From positions 1 to 61,193 of the forward strand of contig CAIWMU010000171.1 of the NCBI GenBank assembly GCA_903913865.1: 61,193 nucleotides of DNA. The letters are read 5' to 3'. Origin of the DNA: an uncultured Verrucomicrobia subdivision 3 bacterium. GTDB taxonomy: Bacteria; Verrucomicrobiota; Verrucomicrobiia; Limisphaerales; UBA8199. A program made the translations under genes and the position numbers. Below the pieces are notes generated by a model. It had not been told where the DNA came from. It did not search any database and saw only the letters and a program-made list of their open reading frames with translations. Positions 30,961-48,800 of this stretch are shown piece by piece; positions within the stretch are counted from its first letter, which is position 1; each line of letters opens with the position of its first letter.

Positions 30961-31131
30961 GAATTTGGACCAGTCGCTTTCCCGCGCCAGGCTTGGATGA
31001 GGAACCAGCCGGGGGCGGGGGAGCGGCGGTCCTGAGTTTCTGACATTTTGCATTAATACTGAAAGCCATCGCCCACCGCGATTCGGATGAGGAACCGGTC
31101 GTGGTGGGTGGGTGGTTGCAGGAAAAAAGCC

Positions 31132-33045
31132 ATGGCCAGGCGGACGCAACATTTGACAGTGCGGGTGTTCGGGATGCTCCTGATCAGCGCCTTTATGGTG
31201 CTGGCTTTGCGTCTTATCGATTTGCAGCTGCTCCGCCACGAAGAACTTCGTGGCGAGGCGGAGCTGAACACCCACAAGCAGTATTACCGGCAGCCCTGCC
31301 GGGGGGACATTGTCGACACCAAGGGAATCATTCTGGCGAGCAGCACCCCGGTTAAAACCGTTTCAGCAGATCCCCGGATGATGTTCGGCAAGGAGGCGGA
31401 ACTCGCCCGGCTCATCGCCCCCTGGCTTCAGGAGGAGGAAGGGGTGATCCTTCAGAAGTTGTCCACCAAGACCCGTCCAACCATGGCCGGGACGGTCGTG
31501 ACGAACAAAACAGTGGTCTTGAAGAAGAAGGTTCCGGTGCAAACCTGGCTGCGTCTCAATGCCGCTTTCAAGACCAACCTGTTCGGGTATTCGTGCACGA
31601 CGAACCGCAACAGGAAGGTTCTGTTCCCAAAGAATCTGAGGGAACTGTGGGCTTCAGCCCTGAGTGCGACCGATGACCAGCTGCGGGTCTACCCGCAGAA
31701 GGATCTGGCCGCACATGTTCTTGGCTTTACAGGAGAATCCACTGAACCCGGTGGACAGATCACCGGTCGGGAGGGGGTGGAACTGACTTTCAACGAGCAA
31801 CTCAGCGGCAGGCGGGGTTGGCGGCGCACTGAAACCGACAGCCACAAGCGGGAGCAGGTAACCCTCCGTGATCAGAATGTTGATCCGCAGGATGGATGTA
31901 ACGTGGTGCTCACAATCGATTCTGTTCTGCAGCACTATCTCTCCGACGCTCTGGCCGAGGCGATGACGAAAAACTCCCCGATCAGCGCCTCCGGGATCAT
32001 CGTCCGGCCGAAAACAGGCGAAATTCTGGCGATGGCGACCATTCCCGATTTCGACCCGAACAGTCCCGGCAACTCCGCTGATCACCGCCGGAACCGGGTC
32101 ATTACCGATATCGCCGAGCCGGGATCCACCTTCAAGATCGTGGTGGTTTCCGCCGCATTGAACGAGAATCTGGTCAGTTTGAAGGATGTTTTTGATTGTG
32201 AACATGGCCGCTTTTTCTTCGGGGGCCATGTTTTGCACGACCACGAATCCTACGATGCGCTGAGCGTTGAGAGCATCATTACGAAATCCTCGAACATCGG
32301 AGCGGCCAAGATAGGGATCAAGCTGGGAGAGCAACGGTTGCATGACTACATGAAGGCGTTCGGTTTCGGGAGTCTGACGGAGATCCCACTCCCGGGCGAA
32401 GTCAGTGCCCGCCAGTTTGTTCAGCCGGTCAAGAACTGGAGCAAGGTCTCCATTGCACAGATTCCGATGGGGCACGGGATTGCCGTGACACGGTTGCAGA
32501 TGGTGATGGCGATGTGCGCGATTGCGAACAAGGGGGTGTTGATGCGGCCGATGCTGGTTGACCGGCTGGTTGCCCACGATGGGCAGGTTGAGGCGCGTTA
32601 TGCGCCCAGGCAGGTGCGGCGGGTGATCGGCGAGACTGCCGCGAAGCATATGGTGGAGGCATTGAAGACGGTTGTGACGCCAAAGGGAACCGCTCCCCAG
32701 GCGGCGATGGAGCATTACGTGGTGGCGGGAAAAACCGGCACCGCACAGAAAGCTGAGAATGGTGTGTATGTGCGCGGAAAGTATCTGGCCTCCTTCATAG
32801 GGTTCTTCCCGGCGGATGACCCTGAATTGTGTATTTCCATCGTTCTGGATGAGCCAAAGAACGGCTACTATGGAGGCAAGACTGCAGCGCCGGTTTTCAA
32901 GCAGGTTGCCGAGCTCGCGGCGAACCATCTGAACATCCGGCCTGACATTGAGACGCCGCCAATTGGGGAGCAGGCGGATGGGAAAGCTCCCAAGACAGCG
33001 GTCGTGCGTGCGGGCTTGCAGGGGGGCAAAGCTCCGACGGATTGA
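31132..33045 (+). CDS. ftsI: Peptidoglycan transpeptidase FtsI (penicillin-binding protein)
   Basis: Septal class B PBP of 637 residues. It has an N-terminal transmembrane helix (about residues 11-33) and a pedestal domain. The transpeptidase motifs are Ser332 in EPGSTFKIV (SXXK), SSN at 386-388 (SXN) and KTGT at 534-537. I chose the ATG at 31132, preceded by AGGAAAAAAG, over the in-frame ATG at 31087. It cross-links septal peptidoglycan with FtsW. There is no PASTA domain in the C-terminal tail. Confidence 0.93.
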   Translation: MARRTQHLTVRVFGMLLISAFMVLALRLIDLQLLRHEELRGEAELNTHKQYYRQPCRGDIVDTKGIILASSTPVKTVSADPRMMFGKEAELARLIAPWLQEEEGVILQKLSTKTRPTMAGTVVTNKTVVLKKKVPVQTWLRLNAAFKTNLFGYSCTTNRNRKVLFPKNLRELWASALSATDDQLRVYPQKDLAAHVLGFTGESTEPGGQITGREGVELTFNEQLSGRRGWRRTETDSHKREQVTLRDQNVDPQDGCNVVLTIDSVLQHYLSDALAEAMTKNSPISASGIIVRPKTGEILAMATIPDFDPNSPGNSADHRRNRVITDIAEPGSTFKIVVVSAALNENLVSLKDVFDCEHGRFFFGGHVLHDHESYDALSVESIITKSSNIGAAKIGIKLGEQRLHDYMKAFGFGSLTEIPLPGEVSARQFVQPVKNWSKVSIAQIPMGHGIAVTRLQMVMAMCAIANKGVLMRPMLVDRLVAHDGQVEARYAPRQVRRVIGETAAKHMVEALKTVVTPKGTAPQAAMEHYVVAGKTGTAQKAENGVYVRGKYLASFIGFFPADDPELCISIVLDEPKNGYYGGKTAAPVFKQVAELAANHLNIRPDIETPPIGEQADGKAPKTAVVRAGLQGGKAPTD

Positions 33046-33055
33046 AAGGTTTTGA

Positions 33056-34468
33056 ATGGAGTCGCGTTCCTTAACATATATTGCTGCCGGATGCGGAGGC
33101 AGGCTGCTTGGGGGAAATCCCGGGGCGGTTGCCACGGGGGTGTGCATTGATTCCAGAAAGGTGCGTGCCGGGGATGTCTTTGTAGCGTTGAAGGGGGATC
33201 GGTTTGATGCGCACGATTTTCTGCAGGAGGTGAGCGGGGTTGCGGCCGCAGTGGTGATTGAGGAGGGCAGGGGAGAACGGGTGCGGGAGGGATGTGCACG
33301 GATCGAAGTGCCGAATCCCCGTGAAGCCCTGGGTCGGTTGGGGGCGGTGTATCGTCAGGACTTCGCCGTGCCGCTGTTTGTGGTGGCGGGCTCCAATGGG
33401 AAAACCACCACCAAGGAGATTCTAGCGACCGTCCTGCGAAGCAAATTTGCAACACTCTCAAGCAAGGAAAGCTTCAACAACGATGTTGGAGTGCCGTGGA
33501 CTCTCCTTCAACTGGGGGAATCGCATCAGCAGGCAGTCGTGGAGGTGGGGACGAATCACCCGGGGGAATTGGCTCCGCTGGTGAGAATGGCCGCGCCGCG
33601 CTATGGGGTGCTGACGAGCATTGGATCCGAGCATCTGGAATTTTTCAAAGACCTTGAAGGTGTGGCCCGGGAGGAGGGGATGCTGGCGGAGTTGCTGCCT
33701 GCTTCCGGAGCCTTGTTTCTGAATGGTGACAGTGAGTGGTCCGCGAGGATCGCCGCACGGTCCACCGCCCCCGTCGTTCTGGCCGGGCTGGAGGATGTAA
33801 ACCAGTGGCGGGCACACCGCATTCGTGTCGATGGCAAGGGTGTTTACTTTACCGTGGAATGTCCCCTGGCTGAATACCGTGGCGAATATCGGATCAACCT
33901 GCTGGGTCGGCATCAAGCCGCCAACGCGGTGCTGGCGGTTGCCGCTGCCGCCCATGCCGGGCTGAGCAAGGCGGAAATCCGGACGGGTTTGGAAGCTGTG
34001 CAGGCACCCCGGCTGCGGTTACAAATATGGGAGAGCCCGGGGGGGGTGCGCGTGTTGGAGGATGTTTATAACGCGAACCTCGACTCCATGAAAGTGGCTC
34101 TTGAGACCCTGAACAGTCTGCCTTGCAAGGGACGGCGGATTGCAGTGTTGGGAGACATGGCGGAACTGGGTCAGGCCAGCGAGGGGGCGCACCGGGAGGT
34201 GGGCCGTCTGGCGGCCCGGTTGGGTGTGGGACAACTGTTTGCCATCGGATCGCGAGCGGCGGAAATCGCGCACGGTGCGCGGGAGGAGGGCCTGGGCCGG
34301 GTGCTGGAGCTGAGTGAAATTGAGTCCGCTGCCGTGGCGATCAAGGGGTTCGTTAAAAGCGGGGATCTTGTTCTGGTGAAGGCCTCAAGGGCCTCCCGTT
34401 TTGAGCGCATTTCAATGGCCTTGCGGGGCCTGGAAGGGGAGAGGGGAGAGGGATGCTCTACTATCTGA
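33056..34468 (+). CDS. murF: UDP-MurNAc-tripeptide-D-Ala-D-Ala ligase
   Basis: MurF adds D-Ala-D-Ala to the UDP-MurNAc tripeptide. The canonical P-loop VAGSNGKTTTKE retains its lysine, unlike the MurD homologue two genes on. ESFNNDVGVPWTLL, EVGTNHPGEL, LLGRHQAANAVLAVA and LEDVYNANLDSM are family blocks. Length 470 residues. It overlaps mraY by 16 nt. Confidence 0.95.
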   Translation: MESRSLTYIAAGCGGRLLGGNPGAVATGVCIDSRKVRAGDVFVALKGDRFDAHDFLQEVSGVAAAVVIEEGRGERVREGCARIEVPNPREALGRLGAVYRQDFAVPLFVVAGSNGKTTTKEILATVLRSKFATLSSKESFNNDVGVPWTLLQLGESHQQAVVEVGTNHPGELAPLVRMAAPRYGVLTSIGSEHLEFFKDLEGVAREEGMLAELLPASGALFLNGDSEWSARIAARSTAPVVLAGLEDVNQWRAHRIRVDGKGVYFTVECPLAEYRGEYRINLLGRHQAANAVLAVAAAAHAGLSKAEIRTGLEAVQAPRLRLQIWESPGGVRVLEDVYNANLDSMKVALETLNSLPCKGRRIAVLGDMAELGQASEGAHREVGRLAARLGVGQLFAIGSRAAEIAHGAREEGLGRVLELSEIESAAVAIKGFVKSGDLVLVKASRASRFERISMALRGLEGERGEGCSTI

Positions 34469-35592
34469 GCCAGCTTGCACTGGATTCCCTGGATCTGCCA
34501 AAGTGGCTGGAGTTATTGCTCCGGCTGCTGCGCTACATCACCGTTCGGGCGGCGGGTGCGGCAGTCACGGCACTGGCTGTGAGCTGGTGGCTCGGGCCCA
34601 GGGTCATCTGCTGGTTGAAGCAGCTCAAGTTCGGGCAGGAATATCAGGACAAGGCCGAACTCGGGGGCATCTCCACGCGAATGATCAGCAAAAAGGGAAC
34701 CCCGACAATGGGTGGGATTCTCATCATTCTGGCCCTGAATATCACGACCTTGATTTGGGCGCAACTCAATGCCCTGGTGCTTCTTGCGCTGCTTTCGGTG
34801 GTGGTGCTTTTCGGGCTCGGATTTTACGATGATTATGCCAAGATCACGAAGCAGAACGGTGGCGGGGCGAAGTCGCAGGTGAAGCTCTGGGTGCAGGGGT
34901 TGCTGGCGGTATTTATCGGCGGATATCTTTGGATGGTTCCCTCAACGAGCAAGCTGATTACGGAGGTGATGGTGCCGTTTTATAAGGAACCGGTTCTGGT
35001 TGGTGTGGGGGCTGTGGGGCTGATTATCACCGTGCTTACCATTGTGGGCAGTTCAAATGCTGTTAATCTTACGGATGGACTTGATGGCCTAGCGATTGGT
35101 TGCACGGTGATCGTGTCGTTCGTCTTTCTGGTGCTGACATATCTGGCAGGCAACGCCAGAGCGGCGGCCTACCTCCTGATTCCGTATGTGCCCGGGGCAG
35201 GGGAGCTTACTGTTTTTTGTGCCGCAATAATCGGGGCCGGGCTGGGCTTCCTGTGGTTCAACTGTCATCCGGCCCAGATGTTCATGGGGGATACAGGGTC
35301 GCTTGCATTGGGCGGGGCTTTGGGAATCGTGGCGGTGCTCATTCACCAGCCGTTTGTGCTGGTGATCGCCGGTGGAATTTTTGTGATCGAGGCCGGGTCT
35401 GTGATGATCCAGACAGGGTGGTTCCGATATACGCGGCGGCGGTTTGGGACTGGCCGGCGCGTGTTTCTGATGGCCCCGTTGCATCACCATTTTGAGAAGA
35501 AGGGTTGGTATGAAAGCCAGGTTGTGATCCGCTTTTACATCCTGTGCGTGCTGTTCGCCGTGTTGGCGTTGAGCACATTGAAGATCCGTTAG
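34453..35592 (+). CDS. mraY: Phospho-N-acetylmuramoyl-pentapeptide transferase
   Basis: MraY makes lipid I at the inner membrane. About ten transmembrane helices are present. The catalytic motifs are GFYDDYAKI, SSNAVNLTDGLDGLA, FMGDTGSLALGG and APLHHHFEKKGW. Length 379 residues. A strong purine-rich site (GGGGAGAGGG) precedes the ATG, which lies inside the end of murF. Confidence 0.96.
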   Translation: MLYYLSQLALDSLDLPKWLELLLRLLRYITVRAAGAAVTALAVSWWLGPRVICWLKQLKFGQEYQDKAELGGISTRMISKKGTPTMGGILIILALNITTLIWAQLNALVLLALLSVVVLFGLGFYDDYAKITKQNGGGAKSQVKLWVQGLLAVFIGGYLWMVPSTSKLITEVMVPFYKEPVLVGVGAVGLIITVLTIVGSSNAVNLTDGLDGLAIGCTVIVSFVFLVLTYLAGNARAAAYLLIPYVPGAGELTVFCAAIIGAGLGFLWFNCHPAQMFMGDTGSLALGGALGIVAVLIHQPFVLVIAGGIFVIEAGSVMIQTGWFRYTRRRFGTGRRVFLMAPLHHHFEKKGWYESQVVIRFYILCVLFAVLALSTLKIR

Positions 35593-35617: not shown

Positions 35618-37033
35618 ATGTTGGAATTGGAAAGAAAATCAGTGCTTGTGACCGGGTTGAACGCCCGGGCGTTGGCCGTTTGCAGGACGTTGGTGCGCCT
35701 TGGGGCGCGGGCGGTTGTCGTGGATTCTGCCCCGGTGGCAGCGACCAACGTCGTGGCCCGGGAATTGCGGGAGATGGGTGCGATGGTGATGGAGGGGGTG
35801 GATGCACTGCCCAAGGGGGAATTTGCCCTCGCCATATCCTGCCGGGAAGGAATTTTCAATGAGGCCATTCGGGCCGCAGGGATCGAACTGATCAGCGAGC
35901 TTGAGTTTGGCTTTCAGATCACCCGTTGTCTGGTGCTGGCGGTTGGTGGTACCAACGGAAGGGGCACAACTTCCCGGTTGATCGAGCAGGTTTTGATGGC
36001 AAACCAGCGGCGGACAACGGTTTGCGGCGAAAAGAGGCTTCCCGTGTGCACGGCGGCAGAGTCGAGCCACGAGATGGACTACCTTCTGGTCAACGCCAGT
36101 CCGTCCCAGTTGGAGAATACATGCTTTTTCAGGCCTTCGGTGGCGGTTCTTACCAATCTTGCTCCGGATGATCTGGGATGCTTTTCAAGCCGTGAGGCCT
36201 ATCTGAAGGCCTGCGCCCGGCTATTCCACAATCAACAAAGCTTTGATTGGGCCATTGTCCAGAGCGACGCTCTGGCAGGCCTTCGGGAAATCGGGGTGCC
36301 ACTGCCCGCCAAGATCATCACATTCAGCGCAACGGATTCCGAGGCGGATATCTTTCTGGACAGGGGGTTGCTGATCAGCCGGATGCCGGACTGGCCCGGC
36401 CCCTTGATGAACCTTGAGCAGTGCTCCTTGCATGGGCCGCACAACGCCGAAAATCTGATGGCCGCACTGGCTGTCGGGCGGGTGTTGAGGCTGCCGCTGG
36501 ACCGCATGGTGGACGCGTTGCAGAAGTTCGAGGCGGGCCCCCACCGGTGCAATCTGGTGGCCGAAATCAACGGAGTCCGGTATGTGGATGATTCCGCCGC
36601 GTGGAATTCCCATGCGCTGCGGCAGGCGTTGCTCACTGTGCACCCCGGTTTTGGCAGCAAACCGAACGTTATTCTCATCGCAGGCGGCCGGGAAACGGGC
36701 GGGGAATACCATGATCTGGGCCCCATTCTGGCGGGGCGCGTGAAGCAGGCTCTTTTGCTGGGCCCATCGGCTGCAAAAATGTCTGCTGCATGGAGGCTTT
36801 TTACTCCTTGCGCCGGAGCGGATTCATTGTTAGAAGCAGTGTCTGTCGCGGCAAATTCAGCTGCCCCTGGCGATGTCATTCTGTTCTCACCGGCTTGTTC
36901 AAGCGTTGACCAGTCATTGGATGACAACATTCAGGGCGTGGCTTTTTGTGCTGCGGTGAATTCATTGGACGGTGCCGCAAGGTCTCCGTCCCACAACGGT
37001 AACAACGACAAGCCCGAAAACGGTGTTGAATAA
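35618..37033 (+). CDS. murD: MurD homologue with degraded active site
   Basis: This 471-residue protein occupies the murD position and aligns with MurD along its length, but the key residues are changed by eye alignment to E. coli MurD. The P-loop reads GGTNGRGTT with Arg115 for the catalytic lysine. The ELSSFQLE block reads NASPSQLE, with Asn159 for Glu. NxxxDHxDR reads NLAPDDLGC, with Asp185 for His. The carbamoylated lysine position is Cys199. The D-S-K-A-T-N block reads D-S-A-A-W-N (325-330). The HN and PHR motifs remain (GPHNAENLMAALA, GPHRCNLVAEINGVR). MurD normally adds D-Glu to UDP-MurNAc-Ala. This copy looks catalytically weak or dead, yet the frame is intact and shows no decay. A second, active murD elsewhere would be expected. 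Confidence 0.85.
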   Translation: MLELERKSVLVTGLNARALAVCRTLVRLGARAVVVDSAPVAATNVVARELREMGAMVMEGVDALPKGEFALAISCREGIFNEAIRAAGIELISELEFGFQITRCLVLAVGGTNGRGTTSRLIEQVLMANQRRTTVCGEKRLPVCTAAESSHEMDYLLVNASPSQLENTCFFRPSVAVLTNLAPDDLGCFSSREAYLKACARLFHNQQSFDWAIVQSDALAGLREIGVPLPAKIITFSATDSEADIFLDRGLLISRMPDWPGPLMNLEQCSLHGPHNAENLMAALAVGRVLRLPLDRMVDALQKFEAGPHRCNLVAEINGVRYVDDSAAWNSHALRQALLTVHPGFGSKPNVILIAGGRETGGEYHDLGPILAGRVKQALLLGPSAAKMSAAWRLFTPCAGADSLLEAVSVAANSAAPGDVILFSPACSSVDQSLDDNIQGVAFCAAVNSLDGAARSPSHNGNNDKPENGVE

Positions 37034-37143: not shown

Positions 37144-37995
37144 ATGAATAATCAAACTCCATCCCAAACTCCGGAGTCGCCGCTGACCCAGAAAAGTCAG
37201 GGCCGTACCCGGGTCAAACTAGCCATTTTTTGCGTGCTCGCCATACACTGTGTGGTGCTGCTCACACTCCTGATGCAGGCAGGCTGCAAGGACAAGGAGC
37301 CCGTCGCTCCCCCTGTGGACATGACGACCACTCCGCCCCCCCAGTTTGATCCCTACTCCAGCACCAATCCTCCCAATGCCGACACCAATCGTGGGCAGGG
37401 AAGTATTGATACCAACCTGCCCCCACAGAACTACCAACCTCCGCAGGTGGATCCTGTCCCTCCCCCCCAGCCGCCGACACCGCCGGTTTCCACCGGTGGC
37501 ACGGAATACAAGATCGTGAAGGGTGACAACTTCAGCACGATCGCCAAAAAGCATGGCATTTCCGTCCGTGCGCTGAGCGAGGCCAATCCGAATGTGAATT
37601 CGTCCAAGCTGAAGATTGATCAGAAGATTCAGATTCCGGCTTCAACCAAAGCCGTGGCTCCTGCTGCGGATGCTCCGGCGCCTGCAGGGACCGCGACGCC
37701 GACAGCAACGGCTGAACCGGCCCGTGCAAGTGCCAAGGCTTACACCGTCAAGTCGGGGGATACCCTGACCAAGATCGCCCATCACTTCGGAGTCACTGTT
37801 TCCGCGATGAAAGCGGCGAATGGCCTGAAGACGGAGAAAATCAAGGTTGGGCAGGCCCTGAAAGTGCCCGCCAGGAAGGGTGGAAGTTCTGCCCCGGCAC
37901 CCGCGCCGGTCGCGCCCCTTGCAGAGCCTTCTCCGGCGCCCGTTCCCCCTGTCCCGTCAGCCGCTCCCGCTGGTGCGGCTCCGGCTCGTCCCTGA
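37144..37995 (+). CDS. LysM-domain membrane-anchored protein
   Basis: This 283-residue protein has a cytoplasmic N terminus of about 24 residues, a hydrophobic segment (about 25-43, LAIFCVLAIHCVVLLTLLM) ending near AGC, then a Pro-rich linker. Two LysM domains follow: EYKIVKGDNFSTIAKKHG and the region after it (about 119-162), and AYTVKSGDTLTKIAHHFG onwards (about 198-242). The tail is Ala/Pro-rich. LysM domains bind peptidoglycan glycan chains. Its position between the murD and ftsW homologues is typical of Verrucomicrobiota as far as I recall. The likely role is to tether or localise something at the septal wall. The Cys after the hydrophobic segment could be lipidated. Confidence 0.88.
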   Translation: MNNQTPSQTPESPLTQKSQGRTRVKLAIFCVLAIHCVVLLTLLMQAGCKDKEPVAPPVDMTTTPPPQFDPYSSTNPPNADTNRGQGSIDTNLPPQNYQPPQVDPVPPPQPPTPPVSTGGTEYKIVKGDNFSTIAKKHGISVRALSEANPNVNSSKLKIDQKIQIPASTKAVAPAADAPAPAGTATPTATAEPARASAKAYTVKSGDTLTKIAHHFGVTVSAMKAANGLKTEKIKVGQALKVPARKGGSSAPAPAPVAPLAEPSPAPVPPVPSAAPAGAAPARP

Positions 37996-38060
37996 TCAGG
38001 TCAGGTGGTGAAGCAACGATTGCACATGTGAACAGGGCAGGGTTGATAAGTGGATTGCAG

Positions 38061-38094
38061 GGATGTCCCGGGCTGTTTAATGCCCGGGACATCC
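38061..38094. repeat. Perfect 13-bp hairpin upstream of ftsW
   Basis: GGATGTCCCGGGC (38061-38073) and GCCCGGGACATCC (38082-38094) form a perfect 13-bp stem with an 8-nt loop. It lies 65 nt after the LysM stop and 45 nt before the ftsW ATG. No T-run follows on either strand, so it is not a standard terminator. It could be an mRNA stability or attenuation element, or an operator. Confidence 0.75.
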
Positions 38095-38139
38095 TCTGCC
38101 GGGTGTCCGGTCCAACGGTTTTGTTCGTGGTGTGAAGAT

Positions 38140-39264
38140 ATGAAGATCGCGGTTACAGCCCTGATGTTCTGTGTGGCGTCCCTGCTTTCGCTGGGCATGG
38201 TCATCCTCTACAGCGCCACGATGATGGGCACCTCCCGGCTGATCATCATGCAGTTGATCTGGGCCGGTATCGGCCTTGTGGCCTGCATCATCCTTGCAGC
38301 CATGGATGAGAGGCATTTGAAGAAGCTGGCCATTCCCCTCCTGATAGGTTCCACGATTCTTCTGGGGTTGGTATTTCTGCCCGGGGTCGGGGGATGGACC
38401 AACGGCGCACGGCGCTGGCTGCACTTTGGAGGGGTGAACGTCCAGCCATCCGAACTGGCAAAAATTTCACTCATTCTGGCGGTGGCCTGGTATGGAGACC
38501 GCTACCATCGGCACATGCCGACGTTCCTGCGGGGATTAGCCGTGCCTGGAGTTTTCATTGGCGGGGTGATCGGCCTGATTTTTGTGGAGCCGGATCGGGG
38601 CACATCGATCCTCATGGCTCTGGTGTGCGGAACAATGCTTCTCGTGGGGGGGGTCCGCTGGCGGTTTGTTGTGCCATTTGCCCTCCTTGCCCTCGTTGGG
38701 CTGGCGGCAACTCTGATGCACGATCAGATGAGGCTGACGCGCATCGCCGGATGGCTTGATCCGGAGGCGCACAAGAACGGTGTCGGTTTCCAAGCCTATC
38801 AAGGCATGCTGGCCCTCGGCTCGGGTGGTTTGTCCGGGCTGGGCTTGGGGAACGGAAGACAGAAGCTCGGTTTCATACCTGAGCACCATACGGATTTTAT
38901 TCTTGCTGTTGTGGGTGAGGAGTTGGGGCTGATCGCAACGTTGCTGGTGGTTGCTGCCTACGTGGTGATCATCCTTTGTGGCCTATACATTACAATGCGG
39001 TCCCACACTCCGTTCGGGCTGATTTTGGGGACGGGGCTGACCTTTTTGATCGGATTTCAGGCATTCATCAACATTGGGGTTGTGACGAGCACCCTGCCCA
39101 ACAAGGGGTTGCCACTTCCATTTGTGAGTTACGGGGGATCGAGCCTCCTGATGATGCTTGCGGCCGTGGGTCTTCTGCTGGGTCTCGCACGACAGTCCCG
39201 GGCACCGGAAGCCGTGCGGGAGGATCACTCCGGCTCGGATGTGTTTGCTCCTCAACTGTCATGA
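38140..39264 (+). CDS. ftsW: Septal peptidoglycan polymerase FtsW
   Basis: SEDS-family glycosyltransferase of 374 residues with about ten transmembrane helices. It polymerises lipid II with FtsI. Family blocks are VILYSATMMG, GARRWLHFGGVNVQPSELAK, FVEPDRGTSILM, PEHHTDFILAVVGEELGL and NKGLPLPFVSYGGSSLL. I chose the ATG at 38140; a longer in-frame start would translate the hairpin at 38061-38094. The TGA overlaps the murG ATG (ATGA). Confidence 0.95.
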   Translation: MKIAVTALMFCVASLLSLGMVILYSATMMGTSRLIIMQLIWAGIGLVACIILAAMDERHLKKLAIPLLIGSTILLGLVFLPGVGGWTNGARRWLHFGGVNVQPSELAKISLILAVAWYGDRYHRHMPTFLRGLAVPGVFIGGVIGLIFVEPDRGTSILMALVCGTMLLVGGVRWRFVVPFALLALVGLAATLMHDQMRLTRIAGWLDPEAHKNGVGFQAYQGMLALGSGGLSGLGLGNGRQKLGFIPEHHTDFILAVVGEELGLIATLLVVAAYVVIILCGLYITMRSHTPFGLILGTGLTFLIGFQAFINIGVVTSTLPNKGLPLPFVSYGGSSLLMMLAAVGLLLGLARQSRAPEAVREDHSGSDVFAPQLS

Positions 39265-40430
39265 TGCAAACCAGCAAACATCTCGTGGCGATTGCCTGTG
39301 GTGGCACAGGCGGGCACCTGTTTCCCGGACTTGCTGTCGGGGTTCAGCTGCAGCGGCGCGGCTGTGATGTGATGCTGATGGTGTCCCCGAAGGAAGTGGA
39401 CCAGATTGCGGCCAGGGAGGCTGTGGGAATGGAACTTGTGACCCTTCCCGCCATCGGTTTGGTGCGCGGGGGCGGGTTTGCTTTTGCCCGTGGGTTTGCC
39501 CGTTCCTATCGTTCCGCGTGCCGGGCTTTTAAGGGACGTCCGTTGAAGGCGGTTCTTGCGATGGGCGGATTTACCAGTGCCGCTCCTCTGGTTGCCGGGC
39601 GGTTGCGTGGGACCGCTTGTTTTCTGCATGAGTCAAACACCATACCCGGCAGGGCAAACCGGTGGCTTTCCCGGCTGGTGCAGGGGGCGTTTGTAGGATT
39701 TCCGCAGGCGGGTCGGTTGCTCCACGCCCGCCAGGTGGTGGCTTCGGGAACTCCTGTGAGGCCACAGTTCCAGCCTGTTTCGGCGGGGGAATGCCGGCGG
39801 GAACTCGGGTTGGATCCTGCCCGTCCGGTGGTTCTGGTGGTGGGGGGAAGCCAGGGAGCCTCCGGGGTGAACAATCTGGTGATGGAGTCACTGCCGGAGT
39901 TGGTTCGTCTTCATCCCGAGTTGCAGTTTTTGCACCTGACGGGAAGTCAGGACCGGGACCGGGTTGCGGGGGGCTATCAGCGCCATTCCGCGCGTGCGGT
40001 GGTGCATCCTTTTCTGGCGGGAATGCATGTGGCCCTTGGGGCTGCGAGCGTGGCGGTCAGCCGGGCAGGGGCATCCTCGATGGCTGAAATCGCCGCGATG
40101 CAGGTTCCGGCGATTCTGGTGCCCTATCCGGCTGCCACAGACAATCACCAATTGCACAACGCGCGGGCTTTTGAAAGCACCGGGGCTGCCCGGACGATTG
40201 AGCAGGGGGCTGCTTCAGGGCCTTTGCTGGCCAACTGGATTTGGGAACTGATCGAGGACGGAGAGGCCCGGACCCGGATGCAGACTGCGCTCGGCAGATG
40301 GCATCGGGCCGAGGCGGCGGAGTTGATTGCGGAAGGAATTTTGGGCCGTGAAAATCCCGGTGTTTGTCAGCCCTCAGAGGGGGCGTCAAGTTCCGGAGCC
40401 GGGCGAACCTGCGTGACGATCTCCGCATGA
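39261..40430 (+). CDS. murG: Lipid II synthase (GlcNAc transferase) MurG
   Basis: MurG adds GlcNAc to lipid I at the inner membrane face. GGTGGHLFPGLAV, the HESNTIPGRANR block, VVGGSQGAS and SRAGASSMAEIAAMQVPAIL are the family motifs. At 389 residues it carries about 27 extra C-terminal residues (ENPGVCQPSEGASSSGAGRT onwards) that look unlike MurG. murB begins at the overlapping ATGA. In many bacteria murC stands here between murG and murB; it is missing. Confidence 0.93.
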   Translation: MMQTSKHLVAIACGGTGGHLFPGLAVGVQLQRRGCDVMLMVSPKEVDQIAAREAVGMELVTLPAIGLVRGGGFAFARGFARSYRSACRAFKGRPLKAVLAMGGFTSAAPLVAGRLRGTACFLHESNTIPGRANRWLSRLVQGAFVGFPQAGRLLHARQVVASGTPVRPQFQPVSAGECRRELGLDPARPVVLVVGGSQGASGVNNLVMESLPELVRLHPELQFLHLTGSQDRDRVAGGYQRHSARAVVHPFLAGMHVALGAASVAVSRAGASSMAEIAAMQVPAILVPYPAATDNHQLHNARAFESTGAARTIEQGAASGPLLANWIWELIEDGEARTRMQTALGRWHRAEAAELIAEGILGRENPGVCQPSEGASSSGAGRTCVTISA

Positions 40431-41347
40431 GCACCATTCCCACAGAGACCAATTTGGACAAGCTGGGAGTGAGACTCTCGGCGGGGAGTGTTGTCCGGAC
40501 AGGAGAGCCTCTGGCCCGGCATACCACCCTGCGGGTGGGTGGTCCTGCCGAACTGTATGTGGAACCGGCTCTGGAATCGGATCTGGCCGAGACGCTCCGC
40601 TACTGCGTTGAGACGGCACAGCCGTTTTTCCTGCTGGGGCGTGGTTCCAACCTGCTTGTGCGGGATGGCGGAGTGCGCGGAGTGGTGATCTGCCTGAGCC
40701 GGCCCCACTTCAGCAGGGTGGAGGTGGTGGATGGCGGGCTCCAATGTGGTGCCGGTGCCCGTTTGAAGCGGGTGGCAGCAGTGGCACGCCAGGAGGGAAT
40801 GGCCGGATTTGAGTTTTTGGAGGGGATTCCCGGCAGCATTGGCGGCGCGCTGAGGATGAATGCGGGTGCGATGGGATGGGCTGCGTTTGATCTGGTGGCG
40901 CGGGTGAGGATCATGGAGACGTCCGGGGATGTTGTGGAACTGGACCGCTCGGAGATGGATGTCGCCTACCGGAGTTGCGCCAGTTTGAAGGGACGCGTTG
41001 TCCTTTCGGTGCTATTGCGGGGGGAAGCCGGGGATCCGGAGAAGATCGCAAGCCGGATGCGGGAGTTCGAAGCGAAGCGGAAGTCATCACAGCCGACCGC
41101 GCCCAGTGCAGGGTGCATGTTCAAGAATCCCGCCACCGTTCCTGCGGGGCGGTTGATTGATGAACTCGGTCTGAAGGGGACCTGCGTGGGGGCCGCGCGG
41201 GTCTCTGAAAAGCATGGAAATTTTCTGGTGAACGACGGTGGGGCTACGGCTGCGGATGTGCTCGGGCTCATCGAACTGATCCGGGATAGGGCACGCCGTG
41301 AGCGTGGGATTGAACTTGAAACGGAAGTTCAGATAATTGGCCAATGA
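40427..41347 (+). CDS. murB: UDP-N-acetylenolpyruvoylglucosamine reductase
   Basis: FAD-dependent reductase making UDP-MurNAc. Family blocks are HTTLRVGGPAELYVEP, GRGSNLLVRDGGVRGVVI, GIPGSIGGALRMNAGAMG and AGCMFKNP; the proton-donor position is Cys, seen in some MurB. VSEKHGNFLVNDGGATA marks the type II subfamily. Length 306 residues from the ATG at 40427. It overlaps murG and ddl by 4 nt each. Confidence 0.95.
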   Translation: MSTIPTETNLDKLGVRLSAGSVVRTGEPLARHTTLRVGGPAELYVEPALESDLAETLRYCVETAQPFFLLGRGSNLLVRDGGVRGVVICLSRPHFSRVEVVDGGLQCGAGARLKRVAAVARQEGMAGFEFLEGIPGSIGGALRMNAGAMGWAAFDLVARVRIMETSGDVVELDRSEMDVAYRSCASLKGRVVLSVLLRGEAGDPEKIASRMREFEAKRKSSQPTAPSAGCMFKNPATVPAGRLIDELGLKGTCVGAARVSEKHGNFLVNDGGATAADVLGLIELIRDRARRERGIELETEVQIIGQ

Positions 41348-42258
41348 TCCTTAAACGCAAACATCATATCACAGTCATGCTTGGGGGCCCCAGCGCGGAG
41401 CGCGAGGTGTCGCTCCGGTCCGGTGCCGCAGTGGCCAGGGCGCTGCGCGCCGTGGGGCATGAGGTGAGCGAACTCGATCCGAACCCCCGGGGGTGGGAAC
41501 TTGCCGCCGGAACGGAGGTCGTGTTTTTGGCCCTCCACGGCACCTATGGCGAGGATGGGACCGTGCAAAAGCGTCTGGAGGAGTTGGGGATGAAATATAC
41601 CGGCTGCGGCACGGAGGCGAGCCGTGTGGGTTTCGACAAACATCTGACAAAACAGCGGATGATTGCAGCCGGGGTGCCCACCCCCAGATCGGTCCTGGTG
41701 GAATCCATTGCCGCAAGCTGGCCGATGGGCTGGAATCCGCCCGTGGTGCTGAAGCCGGTGAGGCAGGGGTCCAGCGTGGGACTTCAATTTGTGGACCGGG
41801 TGGCAGACTGGAGCCGGGCGGTGACGGAGGCGATGCGCTACGATGATCAGTTGCTGGTCGAGGAGCGCATCTGTGGAAAGGAAACCACCGTGGGCATTCT
41901 GGGTGGACGCCCCCTCCCGCTGGTTGAGGTGCGTCCCCGCACCGGCGTTTACGATTACGAGAACAAGTATACCCCGGGATCGACGGAATACCTCTGTCCG
42001 GCCCCGCTCCCGGAGGCTGTGACGGTAAGGGTGCAGGAGGCTGCCCTGGCGGCCTTCAATTCGATTGGCGGGCGGGATTACGGCCGGGTGGATGTGATGA
42101 TCAACGCTGCCGGGGATCCGTTTGTGCTGGAGATCAATACCCTGCCGGGGATGACGGAGACGAGCCTGTTGCCCAAGGCGGCGGCGGCGGCAGGCATTGG
42201 ATACGCGGACCTTTGCGAATTGATGGTGGAACTTGCGCTAAAGAGGGAAGGCATTTGA
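41344..42258 (+). CDS. ddl: D-alanine-D-alanine ligase
   Basis: ATP-grasp enzyme of 304 residues making D-Ala-D-Ala for MurF. Blocks present are VMLGGPSAEREVSLRSG, LALHGTYGEDGTVQKRLEEL, PVVLKPVRQGSSVGLQFV and FVLEINTLPGMTETSLLPKA. Its ATG overlaps the murB TGA. Confidence 0.95.
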   Translation: MILKRKHHITVMLGGPSAEREVSLRSGAAVARALRAVGHEVSELDPNPRGWELAAGTEVVFLALHGTYGEDGTVQKRLEELGMKYTGCGTEASRVGFDKHLTKQRMIAAGVPTPRSVLVESIAASWPMGWNPPVVLKPVRQGSSVGLQFVDRVADWSRAVTEAMRYDDQLLVEERICGKETTVGILGGRPLPLVEVRPRTGVYDYENKYTPGSTEYLCPAPLPEAVTVRVQEAALAAFNSIGGRDYGRVDVMINAAGDPFVLEINTLPGMTETSLLPKAAAAAGIGYADLCELMVELALKREGI

Positions 42259-43230: not shown

Positions 43231-44440
43231 TCCAACATCAATCATAGTGGGCTTGGAAGTCGGCACCAGCAAGGTGTGTGCGGCCGTCGGAGACGTGAGT
43301 CGGCAGGATGGAGCGTTGTCCATCATTGGCCTGGGGCAGTCTCCCTCCCGGGGGGTGAAAAAGGGGGAGATCATCGATGCCGAAGCGGCGGAGGAATGCA
43401 TTCGCAAAGCCATTGCCGAAGCGGAGAAGATGGCGGATGTCGAGATCCGGAATGTCTATCTGGGGGTGACAGGGGGGCACATGCGTGGCTTCAACAATCG
43501 CGGGGTGCATCCCATTGTTTCGGCCGACCGGGAGATTGCCGATGAGGATGTGAAAGCTGCCATCAAGAACGCGAAGGCGATCAATGTGCCGGCCCAGAAT
43601 CAGGTCATCTGTGCGATCCGCCAGCACTTTACAGTGGAGGGTCAGGATGGGATCACCAATCCCGTGGGCATGCTGGGATCCCGGCTGGAGGTGGATGTGC
43701 ATGTGCTGCACGGGAACCTGAACCGCCTGCAGAATGCAATCCGCACCGTCAAGGGGTTGCAACTGGAGGTGGATGACATTGTGTTCAACGGTCTGGCTTC
43801 GTCTCTTGCGGTGCTCCATAGTGACCAGAAGGAGATGGGTTCTCTGGTGATAGACATGGGTGCCGGCACAACTGAATTTGTCCTTTATGCCAACGGGATC
43901 ATCAAGCATACAGGGATCCTGGCTGTCGGCGGATGCCATGTCACAAACGACCTTGCCTACGGTCTGAAGCTCCGCACAAGCCGTGCTGAGAAAGTGAAGC
44001 TCGATCACGGATCCGCCATGGTGGATGAGGATGCCAAGGGGCACTCGGTCACCATTGACGAACTGGGAACTGATTCGCGGAGCCTTAATCTTGAACATCT
44101 GCGGATGATCATGTCAGCCCGTTTGGAGGAGATTTTTCAACTCATTCGTCAGGAACTTGCGCAGGCGGATGTGCTGAAGTTTCTGCGCGCCGGTGTGTTT
44201 CTTTGCGGTGGAGGATCCCGTATTCCGAAGATCACCCAACTGGCGGAGCGGGTCTTCTGCATGCCCGTCTCTGTGACAAAAACCAATTCGATCAGCGGCC
44301 TCAGCACAACGCTCGACCAACCCGAATTTGCCACTGCCATCGGGCTGGTGAAATACGGCAGTTTCCAGGTCCGGCGCAGGCCGGTGGCCCCGCTTCCCCG
44401 GATTCAGGATTTGATTGGGACTCTCTTCAAACGCAGATAA
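43223..44440 (+). CDS. ftsA: Division protein FtsA
   Basis: Actin-fold protein of 405 residues that ties FtsZ to the membrane. The phosphate loops IIVGLEVGTSKVCAAVGD and VIDMGAGTTEFVLY, the 1C domain (VRNVYLGVTGGHMRGFNN-like region near residues 75-95) and LCGGGSRIPKITQLAE are present. The C-terminal end PRIQDLIGTLFKRR could form the amphipathic membrane helix. I chose the ATG at 43223, preceded by AGGAAAAAGA; the longer in-frame start runs through ftsQ in another frame. Confidence 0.92.
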   Translation: MFDPTSIIVGLEVGTSKVCAAVGDVSRQDGALSIIGLGQSPSRGVKKGEIIDAEAAEECIRKAIAEAEKMADVEIRNVYLGVTGGHMRGFNNRGVHPIVSADREIADEDVKAAIKNAKAINVPAQNQVICAIRQHFTVEGQDGITNPVGMLGSRLEVDVHVLHGNLNRLQNAIRTVKGLQLEVDDIVFNGLASSLAVLHSDQKEMGSLVIDMGAGTTEFVLYANGIIKHTGILAVGGCHVTNDLAYGLKLRTSRAEKVKLDHGSAMVDEDAKGHSVTIDELGTDSRSLNLEHLRMIMSARLEEIFQLIRQELAQADVLKFLRAGVFLCGGGSRIPKITQLAERVFCMPVSVTKTNSISGLSTTLDQPEFATAIGLVKYGSFQVRRRPVAPLPRIQDLIGTLFKRR

Positions 44441-44450
44441 GCCTTCGCAA

Positions 44451-45731
44451 ATGCAAACCAACGAGTTTACCCCGCCTGCCGACCCGTCCACGCCGGAGCA
44501 GGCACCCCGCATCAAGATTTTTGGCCTTGGTGGTGCCGGTATCAAAGTGATGGAGCTCCTGAGCGCATCGGAATTTGCCGGAGCGGGCCGGGTTGCCATC
44601 GCAACGGAGGCCGCTTCGCTTGCGGTCACAACGGCTTCCGAGAAACTTTTGCTGGAAACCCGTGAACTGCGGGGGTTGGGCACCGGGGGGGACCCTGAGC
44701 GTGGACGCGTTCTGGCGGAGGAACAGACCGATCAGTTGAGGGCGTTGTGCCAGGATGCGGAGATGATTTTCATCGTAACCGCCCTCGGGGGTGGTGCCGG
44801 GACCGGTATCAGCCCTGTTTTGGCGCGGATTGCCCGGGATTCGGGGGCGCTCGTGCTGGCCTTTGTGATCACACCCTTCAAGTGCGAGGGGTCGCTGCGC
44901 AATCAAATGGCGATGGAGGGTTTGGAGCGGCTGAGAAACAAGTGCGATGGTCTGATCTGCCTCCCCAATGAATGTCTGAGCAAAATGTTAACCTCGCAGA
45001 CGAGTGTGCTCGTGGCCTTTGAAATGGGCAACCGGCTGCTTGCTGACGCCATCCGGGGGATTTGGCGGTTGCTCATACGCAAGGGGCTTATTGAGATCAC
45101 CTTTGCAGATCTTGCCTCAGTGCTTCGGAACCAGCACGCACACTGCATGTTTGCGGTGGCTGAGGCATCCGGCCCCAACCGGGCCGATTTGGCCGTGTCC
45201 CGGCTGTTTGAGCACCCGATGTTACCCGGGGGGGATGCCCTATCCAGAAGCGAAACCGTTCTGGTGAGTTTGACTGCGGGTCCAGATCTTTCGATGGCAG
45301 AACTCAGCACCATCAGCAGCCAGATCACCAGCAGGTGTCCTGCTGCGCGTGTTGTTGTGGGTGCCGCAGTTGGTTCCGATTTTGGGGATTGCCTTGGCGT
45401 CACCATCATCGCCTCCTGTCCGGCGGATGGGGAGGGGGAACAAATTCAAATAGAGAGGATCACCCGGCCCATACAGCAAGCCGTTGAGCCTGTAATCCGT
45501 ATGGTTGAACCTACTCAGCCAATCCCTCTGGAAGCGCCAGCAACCCGCTCCAGTTCAGAGCCGGGAACAGCCAAGCCCGGGTCGCGGACGAAAAAAAGTC
45601 ACTCGCAACTTCAGCAGGGGCAATTGCCCTTGCAGATCGTTTCCAAGGGTGGATTTGGTGAGCCCACGATCCATAGGGGTGAGGATCTGGACATTCCGAC
45701 CTATATCCGCCGCGGTGTTTCTTTGAACTGA
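44451..45731 (+). CDS. ftsZ: Divergent FtsZ tubulin-like division GTPase
   Basis: This 426-residue protein has the FtsZ order: IKIFGLGGAGIKVMELL, the tubulin signature as GGGAGTG (113-119; usual GGGTGTG), and a C-terminal DLDIPTYIRRGVSLN. That last block matches the conserved peptide that binds FtsA and similar partners. The GTP-binding A-V-N-T-D segment reads A-I-A-T-E (49-53). The T7 loop, normally N-x-D-F-A-D, reads E-I-T-F-A-D (215-220), so the Asn and the first Asp, which acts on GTP across the filament interface, are lost while Asp220 is kept. Divergent FtsZ is known in Verrucomicrobiota. Whether this copy hydrolyses GTP is unclear. I chose the ATG at 44451, 10 nt after ftsA. Confidence 0.9.
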   Translation: MQTNEFTPPADPSTPEQAPRIKIFGLGGAGIKVMELLSASEFAGAGRVAIATEAASLAVTTASEKLLLETRELRGLGTGGDPERGRVLAEEQTDQLRALCQDAEMIFIVTALGGGAGTGISPVLARIARDSGALVLAFVITPFKCEGSLRNQMAMEGLERLRNKCDGLICLPNECLSKMLTSQTSVLVAFEMGNRLLADAIRGIWRLLIRKGLIEITFADLASVLRNQHAHCMFAVAEASGPNRADLAVSRLFEHPMLPGGDALSRSETVLVSLTAGPDLSMAELSTISSQITSRCPAARVVVGAAVGSDFGDCLGVTIIASCPADGEGEQIQIERITRPIQQAVEPVIRMVEPTQPIPLEAPATRSSSEPGTAKPGSRTKKSHSQLQQGQLPLQIVSKGGFGEPTIHRGEDLDIPTYIRRGVSLN

Positions 45732-45880
45732 TGCCCGGAGCGGGGGGCCTGTCAGCCCGGGGAGGGATGCCTTTCCGGCTGTCAGGAGTGGTGTCGACAA
45801 GACTGGCTGGAACTGACATAGTGGTCATCGTTCCGGATGATCTAGTTCATGTGGCAGCTTTGCACCCTTGGTCGGACACC

Positions 45881-48800
45881 ATGAAAAAGTCCCTCGCCAT
45901 CCTGCTCGCCCTCGTGGTGTGCCTGGTCTCGTCCCACATGGCCCGGGGAGCTGTCCGGATCAGTGAATTTGCAGCTTCCAACCTCAGGGGCATCAGTGAC
46001 GAGGATGGGAATCACGAGGATTGGATCGAGATATTCAATGATGGTGCGGCTCCGGTTTCGCTCCAGAACTGGTGTCTCACCGACACTCCGATGAGTTTGG
46101 ACAAATGGCGGTTTCCTGCCACCAATATCGGCCCCGGTCAGTTCCTGATCGTGTTCGCATCCGGCAAGGATCGGCGCATCCCGGGGCGGACACTTCACAC
46201 CAACTTCAAGCTGAACTCAGATGGCGACTATCTTGCACTGGTGGAGCCGGACGCCAGGACCGTGGCCACCCAATTTTCCCCCGCCTTCCCGCCGCAGGCG
46301 GTGGATGCGAGTTACGGGTTCCCGATGCAGACTGCCAGGACGGTCCTATCGCAGGGTGCCCCGGTCAAATGGAAGGTCTGGACCACTGCGACGGCTTACG
46401 TTTTGGAATCTTCGGGATGGAAATCAAGCCTCACCTATGCCGCCACGGGGTGGAGCAACGGAACGAGCGGTCTGGGGTGGGATGACACGGCATCCCCGAT
46501 GAGCTTCTCGCCCTGGTTTGGCACCAATTCGAATCCCCGCAGCCTCATGCCAGGCAGCGCACGCGCCCTGTTTTCGCGGTTTTTGTTCAAAGCGACCAAT
46601 GTTGTTGCAGCATCGGAATTGCGGTTGCGGATGCGCTTTGATGACGGGTTTGTCGCATGGTTGAACGGGACGCTCGTGGCCTCCAACCTTGCCCCTGCCG
46701 CCCCCTCGTGGAATTCGGTGTCCACGGGCCTGCGGGATGATGTGCTCAACGGGGCCTGGGCGACCTTCCCGATGCCTTTGGCCTCGCTGGTTGAGGGGAC
46801 GAACCTCCTGGCCATCCAGGTCTTCAACACCAGCGCCCCGGACACCAGCGACCTGCTGCTGCTGCCGGAGGTGGACCTGATGTTTCCGGGGGCATCGGAC
46901 ATCCCGGCCTACTTTTCCCCGAGCACCCCGGGAAAGACCAACAGCAGCGGGACAGTCGCGCTGGCTCCGGGAGTTGAAATGCTTTCAAGTGTGGCACGGC
47001 CTCCCGGGGGAGCGGGGAGTCCACCGCTCACCATTACTGCCCTGGTGTCGCGGACAGTCCATGCCATCACGAATGTGACGCTGTTCCACCGCACCATGTT
47101 TGGCACCGACTCCGTGGTGGGCATGGTTCCGGGAACGGGGGGTGTATGGACCGCATCCATTCCCACGACCGCCCTGGGCCCGGGACAGATGTTGCGTTGG
47201 CGGATCGAGGCGCGGGATGCGGCCGGGAATATCGGCACGGGCCCCCCTTTCGTGGCCGCGAATGATGATGACCGTTATTATGGGACGGTCGCACTGAATC
47301 CGGCTGAACTGGACAGCCGCCTGCCCATCGTTCACTGGTTTGTTCAGGACTATGCTGCGGCGGCAAGCGAGACCGGAGGGCGGTCATCCTGCTACTTCCT
47401 CAACCATTTCTACGACAACCTCCTCGTCAAGCTGCATGGTCAGTCCACATCCGGTTTCCCGAAGAAGGGACATGATTTTGATTTCAATGCTGGAAACCGT
47501 TTCATCTGGCGGGAGGGGGAGAAGGGGGAGAAAGATGTGAATCTCCTCACCAACTGGGGGGACAAAAGCAAGGTTCGTAATACGCTGGCGTATGAGATGT
47601 TGAACCGGTCGGGGGTGCTGTCCCACTGGGCGTTTCCGGTGCGGGTCCAGACCAACGGCGGGTTCCACGCCGTGCTGGACATGGTTGAGGATGGGGATGA
47701 TTGTTTTACCGAAAGGGTGGGGCTGGATCCCCGTGGCGCCCTCTACAAGGTTTATACTGCGGCATATACAGGCGGCGTGACGGGAACCAACATCTGGGTG
47801 GCTGAAAAGAAGGCCCGCAAGGATGAGGGCAGCTCGGACCTCGCCGCATTCAGTGCCGGAATTGCAGCGAACTGGTCCCTCGCCCAGCGCCGGGCCTTTG
47901 TGTATGACAACGTCGATCTGGGTGCGACCATCAATTATCTGGCCTCCATCGTGCTGAGTGGATGCCATGATCAGGGTCACAAAAATTTTTACCTGTATCG
48001 GGACAGCGATGGAACCCGGCTGTGGCGGGTGCTTCCATGGGACGTCGATTTGACCTTCGGCCACGAGTGGTTCCAGGGGCCCGCCTATTTTGAGGACAAC
48101 ATCTACTTTGACCAGCCGCTCCAGCTGGGGGTGATCAACACCCTGAAGGAGATCATTTTCGGCAGTGCTGAGTTGAACCAGATGTTTCTGCGCCGCCTGC
48201 GGACCCTCATGGACAATGTTCTTCAGCCCGGGACGACCCCTTTGAGCCTGCGCACCAATGAAAACCGGGTGGCGGAGTTGCTGGATCTGATCGATCCCCC
48301 GGGAGTGGCCACAACGGATGCGCGGCTTGATTTCGCGAAATGGGGATGGTGGACGAACGGGACGCAGATCATTAGTTCAAATGCCTCGCAGGAGATCCGC
48401 GCGCAGGCCAGGAGGATCACCTACACGTTCTTTACAGGGCGCAGGGGGTTCCTGCAGGCGGGACAAACCAGCTCCGGGATTGCCATTCCCTCAAGCCAAA
48501 GTGCCGGGATCGGGGTCACTCTGGAAATGGGTGATTATAATCCGGCGGGCGGGTCGCAGGAGCAGGAGTATGTGGTGCTGCGGAACAGAAACTCCGTGGC
48601 AGTGGATGTCAGCGGGTGGAAATTGTCGGGCCAAATCGGGTATGAGTTTCCCCCCGGGACGGTCATTCCCTCCGGTGGGGGAATCACCGGAAACATCGGA
48701 TTGCTGTTCGTGGCCCGGAATCCATGGGCGTTCAGGCAGCGGGCCATCGCGCCGAAGGGCGGCCAGAATTGTCTCCTGGCCGGGCCCTACTCGGGCCAAC

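Follow-up and report, generated by a model that had tools for sequence, protein, structure and literature searches.

A MurD-family gene with a degraded active site in the dcw operon of a verrucomicrobial lineage apparently lacking MurC and MurE

The ligases MurC, MurD and MurE serve as drug targets, and almost every walled bacterium is considered to depend on them. In the bacteria where it has been characterised, Mpl is described as an accessory recycling enzyme acting beside MurC, MurD and MurE, and the Psychrobacter arcticus enzyme is reported to attach L-Ala-gamma-D-Glu-DAP to UDP-MurNAc at a rate of 260 per min, the rate with L-Ala being 0.7 (PMC3060825). Reliance on foreign wall material is described for Tannerella forsythia, which obtains a wall precursor from other bacteria after loss of MurA and MurB (PMC7670621, PMC5388701). 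Loss of mur genes is described for the Planctomycetia, likewise PVC bacteria, in which murA, C, D, F, G, murJ and ftsW are reported to be lost in groups also without ftsZ; the same 2025 survey calls the dcw genes highly conserved in Verrucomicrobiota (PMC12283558).

The lineage described here would share salvage with T. forsythia, but that organism salvages the sugar (PMC7670621, PMC5388701), whereas this lineage keeps MurA and MurB and loses the peptide branch. In contrast to the Planctomycetia, its order loses only C, D and E (together with I), with the division genes intact, and Mpl, rather than being accessory, would be the sole entry of peptide onto UDP-MurNAc.

The window, by which we mean the whole stretch of 61,193 nucleotides analysed, carries a dcw cluster with the following order.

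31087-33045, forward strand: gene for an ftsI-type PBP (domain search)
33046-33055, no strand: 10-bp gap, the murE slot between ftsI and murF, with no murE (gene order)
33056-34468, forward strand: murF (TIGR01143, 359.6 bits; cut-off 288.6)
34453-35592, forward strand: mraY (locus comparison)
35618-37033, forward strand: degraded murD of 471 codons (frame, with profile and structure-sequence matches)
37144-37995, forward strand: LysM-type gene, found after murD or its remnant across the order (named by sequence reading)
38050-39264, forward strand: ftsW, longest frame (named by sequence reading)
38976-40430, forward strand: murG, inside this longest frame (domain search)
40364-41347, forward strand: murB alone (profile match)
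41344-42258, forward strand: ddl (named by sequence reading)

Relatives that possess MurE encode it directly 5' of murF, and at the position after murG, where murB stands alone in the window, relatives of the order that possess MurC usually have a murC-murB fusion. The dcw clusters of the order conserve the LysM-type gene, which stands after murD or what remains of it and before ftsW.

The gene at 35618-37033 lies directly 3' of mraY, the normal place of murD, and its frame is open throughout, as the original prediction, made by eye, had stated. Its product scored 231.6 bits with the murD profile TIGR01087, passing the curated cut-off of 211.95, and the runner-up profile, MurC, gave 64.8. Mur-ligase middle and C-terminal domains were detected, and the best sequence matches among solved structures were MurDs (3lk7, E 2.5e-44). 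The protein is thus like MurD (TIGR01087) in fold family, length, operon position and score, yet differs from it at Lys115, Asn138, Glu157, His183, Lys198, Lys319, Thr321 and Lys348. MAFFT alignments with E. coli MurD (NC_000913, whose numbering is used for canonical residues) and with 30 to 35 MurDs of the order placed the altered sites as follows.

35948-35971, forward strand: P-loop reading GTNGRGTT, Lys115 changed to Arg, with G116 within the loop
36029-36031, forward strand: Glu138 replacing Asn138
36092-36094, forward strand: Asn159 replacing Glu157
36170-36172, forward strand: Asp185 replacing His183
36212-36214, forward strand: Cys199 replacing the carbamoylated Lys198
36596-36604, forward strand: A-A-W replacing K-A-T of DSKATN (Lys319 = A327, Thr321 = W329)
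36695-36697, forward strand: Thr360 replacing Lys348

In full, the differences from the E. coli enzyme comprise K115R, N138E, E157N, S160P (Pro162 of the window protein), H183D, K198C, K319A, T321W and K348T, so that the canonical DSKATN reads DSAAWN; N268, N271, H301, R302, D317 and S415 are retained. The alignments bear out both the arginine that had been read in place of the P-loop lysine and the further losses claimed by eye (the Glu, the His, the carbamoylated Lys, and the K and T of DSKATN), each falling where it had been assigned; they rule out canonical residues at shifted positions. The nearest relative, a member of the same genus (G001), has a MurD 65% identical to the window copy, with R115, S160P, H183D and K319A in common and other letters elsewhere; because these four changes recur there, the losses in the window are not sequencing error. 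Judged from its sequence, the gene is a MurD-family member, in the dcw operon, whose active site has been lost.

An active MurD elsewhere, as envisaged in the original prediction, was not found. The genome from which the window derives (G000; 95% complete, 267 contigs) yielded no second MurD by protein search, in which the sole other row was weak (E 0.13), or by search with the Mur-ligase middle-domain family PF08245, whose matches over cut-off were MurF, an Mpl, the window MurD and FolC. MurC and MurE were likewise missing, both from their dcw slots and from the rest of the 95% complete genome. The Mpl (G000:C71) is bona fide by score and signature: it passed TIGR01081 (457.9; cut-off 388.7), failed the MurC profile (315.8 against 335.1), and contains the motif (S/T)AFFDKRSK, which we took from a description of the Mpl signature (PMC3060825) and which was present in 20 of 20 Mpls checked. 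P-loop and signature were both kept in all 20 genomes sampled (14 without and six with a dcw MurE). The median ratio of Mpl distance to dcw distance was 0.51 without MurE and 0.63 with it, a slightly greater conservation where MurE is absent, uncorrected for kinship.

Inventories across the order revealed that these absences are not peculiar to one genome. A dcw MurE was present in 25 of 58 genomes and absent from 33. MurC exceeded its cut-off in 20 of the 58, all of them among the 25, and the glutamate racemase MurI did so in 17 of the 25 and in none of the 33. Thirty of the 33 genomes without dcw MurE gave a MurC/Mpl-type match, which in no case exceeded the MurC cut-off. MurA was over cut-off in 51 of the 58 (31 of the 33), and DapF in 54 (31 of the 33). 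In a wider sample of the order, 167 genomes with a completeness of 90% or more, 47 gave a MurE match (45 over cut-off) and 120 did not, MurC was over cut-off in 35, and 161 had a MurC/Mpl-type match. The genomes examined that lack MurC and MurE are all multi-contig, none being closed; missing sequence cannot account for the absence of MurE and MurC from most of the 167. MurA, MurB, Mpl, MurF, Ddl, MraY, MurG, FtsI and FtsW are kept in the genome of origin and in most of the order.

Several genomes depart from the common pattern. G037 and G052 (L088, L095) have no MurC, yet carry a canonical MurD and MurE; in G051 (L109) MurE is kept and MurC and MurD were not found; and in G005, counted among the 33, MurE lies on another contig, outside the dcw cluster (L114), with no intact MurD and no MurC found. 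The first three of these suggest that loss of MurC can come first, and Mpl may do the work of MurC in G037 and G052. G054 (L116) and G005 (L115) each encode an additional protein that resembles Mur ligases and has a C-terminus rich in Cys.

On a tree of dcw proteins from 55 of the 58 genomes (G002, G006 and G025 left out, and murF of G028 dropped), nine changes of MurE state were counted, five of them forced by supported branches, which suggests repeated loss; a single clade was not rejected (AU p 0.101, using every second well-filled column), and the MurD tree requires two changes.

Each of the 23 full-length MurDs that come from genomes with MurE was intact at all 15 sites checked, and all 12 from genomes without MurE were degraded, each having lost at least two of the 15 (Fisher p 1.2e-9 over the 35 copies, kinship not being allowed for). 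Conservation of the degraded form within the order, a question raised by the original prediction, therefore holds in part: the form is common to every full-length copy without MurE, but elsewhere the gene is deleted, shredded or absent. The murD slots of the 33 genomes without dcw MurE held these 12 copies, two internally deleted genes of 146 aa (G003, G009), in which the first 26-36 residues are joined straight to the C-terminal part, and seven sets of scraps (G005, G007, G008, G012, G021, G034, G036); in the other 12 genomes MurD was not found or the slot was unread, some of the 12, such as G045, G053 and G026, being readable right across it.

The course of this decay was read against 59 columns that do not vary among 24 canonical MurDs (that of E. 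coli and 23 from the order). Sixteen were kept in all degraded copies, and losses among the 12 were most frequent at Asn138 (12 copies), Gly140 (11), Glu157 and Ser160 (10 each) and Lys198 (nine). The MurD of G010 keeps 51 of the 59, and seven of the eight columns it has lost are Thr119, Asn138, Gly140, Glu157, Ser159, Ser160 and Lys198. Because both the column counts and the losses in G010 cluster there, loss appears to begin at the substrate and metal site, an order that would be expected if catalysis lost its value before folding did.

Constraint on the window copy is discernible. Between G000 and its nearest relative, murD gave a dN/dS of 0.155 (NG86), a rough figure as dS (1.70) is near saturation, and one within the range of the neighbouring genes (0.043-0.234; ftsZ not computable). 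The claim that the gene is under selection is to that extent upheld. The MurDs of G033, G039, G010 and G054 have substitutions in common, and together with the dN/dS value these show that the relic does not evolve without restraint. Relative to the operon, degraded MurDs evolve faster than canonical ones, with median distance ratios of 1.38 (45 pairs) and 0.88 (171 pairs), a comparison covering 19 canonical and 10 degraded copies, against 23 and 12 in the residue table. The window copy of murD is thus not drifting freely, yet sister lineages can do without the gene; it may have had a minor structural role before being lost.

We consider it reasonably probable that the window holds a dead MurD in a lineage that has abandoned the stepwise MurC-MurD-MurE branch, with Mpl loading a ready-made peptide in its place. 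MurA and MurB would supply UDP-MurNAc, to which Mpl would join L-Ala-gamma-D-Glu-DAP in a single step, carrying the entire flux; MurF would then add D-Ala-D-Ala, and MurF and Ddl together would complete the pentapeptide. MurD would be left without a partner for its product and without a substrate, since in the absence of MurC no UDP-MurNAc-L-Ala is expected. Its active site would have decayed first, starting from the site formed by Asn138, Glu157, Ser159-160 and Lys198, under partial constraint on the fold, and in sister lineages the gene would already have been deleted or shredded. Mpl could, however, act on another substrate. Only marginally less firmly, we think it probable that most of the order attaches by Mpl alone a tripeptide that is either salvaged or made by an undescribed synthetase, that MurC, MurD, MurE and MurI have been lost, and that murD is to be seen there at every stage from active enzyme through dead fold to remnant. 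The least certain step is the source of the tripeptide, which may be muropeptide salvage, in the genome of origin perhaps through an AmpG-like permease.

Of the 33 genomes without dcw MurE, 16 encode this permease, that of the window among them, and the other 17, the nearest relative included, lack it; none of the 25 genomes with dcw MurE encodes it. The association with absence of MurE (Fisher p 1.6e-5) is unsupported by independent pairs on the tree, and the distribution is equally well explained by kinship. The protein of the genome of origin (C24, L198:8163-10106) scored 157.1 with TIGR00901, below the curated AmpG threshold of 350, and an insert of about 190-220 aa interrupts its AmpG match; 12 of the 16 orthologues have this long form and four are of ordinary length. 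Two neighbours of the gene, encoding a FIST-domain protein and IleRS, were considered and dropped. A further muropeptide importer, YejBEF-YepA, has been described (PMC9790009).

Manufacture of the tripeptide within the cell, by an undescribed synthetase that would form the free peptide first and meet the sugar later, shares the dead MurD and the entry by Mpl with the favoured account, and we regard it as a credible but clearly less probable version of events. It gains from the permease being missing from half of the genomes, from the presence of DapF in 31 of the 33, from the size of the group (the 120 genomes of 167 with no MurE match) and from genomes of several Mb in which host-bound reduction is not obvious. 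It must contend with the want of a candidate gene: 20 Mpl neighbourhoods (14 without and six with a dcw MurE) had no conserved partner, ruling out a replacement gene beside Mpl. With MurI in none of the 33, D-Glu would also have to be supplied in some other way; in Chlamydia, racemase activity of a DapF has been reported (PMC5885031). A retained pseudoenzyme, with the MurD fold serving as scaffold or regulator of MraY, MurF, MurG or the divisome, as the original prediction had proposed, seems unlikely. The dN/dS between G000 and G001 accords with it, as do the 51 invariant columns kept in G010, whose losses fall mainly in the active-site region, and a pattern common to a supported clade (Asn138 to His, Glu157 to Gln, Ser159/160 changed); but degraded MurDs outpace their operon, all that nine sister genomes retain is scraps or a gene of 146 aa, and MurD is undetectable in others, so that a generally required scaffold is improbable.

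We give little credence to an unusual but active ligase with another substrate, although an unusual ligase was the second option of the original prediction. Membership of the MurD fold family and the ATP-side residues N268, N271, R302 and D317 kept in the window copy would suit such an enzyme, but none of the P-loop Lys, the Mg-side Glu, the carbamoylated Lys, His183 and Lys348 survives, G000 and G001 carry different replacements at several of these sites, and without MurC the expected substrate is missing. Lower still we would place active MurC, MurD and MurE that are present but unassembled or unbinned: a genome 95% complete in 267 contigs leaves some room for them, but among the 58 genomes dcw MurE is lacking in 21 whose completeness is 90% or more, most of the 167 have neither MurE nor MurC, the dcw slots, though assembled, are empty, and the decay of murD can be seen directly.

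That the three ligases have been lost from most of an order whose other wall and division genes are kept implies either dependence on foreign wall peptides or a new route to the stem peptide. Dependence on the wall peptides of other bacteria could help to explain the difficulty of growing such organisms, and what appeared to be an oddity of one protein would become a record of the death of an essential enzyme. By title and opening of the abstract, none of the papers listed by searches of the open PMC library reports MurC/D/E loss of this kind; subscription journals and preprints lie outside that scope, and the novelty is provisional.

A wider scan with an mraY pattern retrieved at least 80 loci, mostly from distant bacteria, of which seven were examined. 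The nearest named mraY matches listed include Verrucomicrobiota MAGs, which would place the order in that phylum. Among the seven loci, L119 has murE, murD and murC, and L118 ('BP6.bin19') gave no murD match between mraY and lysM. L121 (Opitutia bacterium Tous-C10FEB) has murE and gave no murD or murC match at the usual dcw places. Within the window itself, the FtsZ encoded at 44415-45731 is divergent, scoring 246.1 bits where the TIGR00065 cut-off is 295.2, and its GTP-binding loop is altered to TALGGGAGTG; a frame for a protein of 1677 aa lies on the same strand, 3' of the dcw cluster, at 45731-50764.
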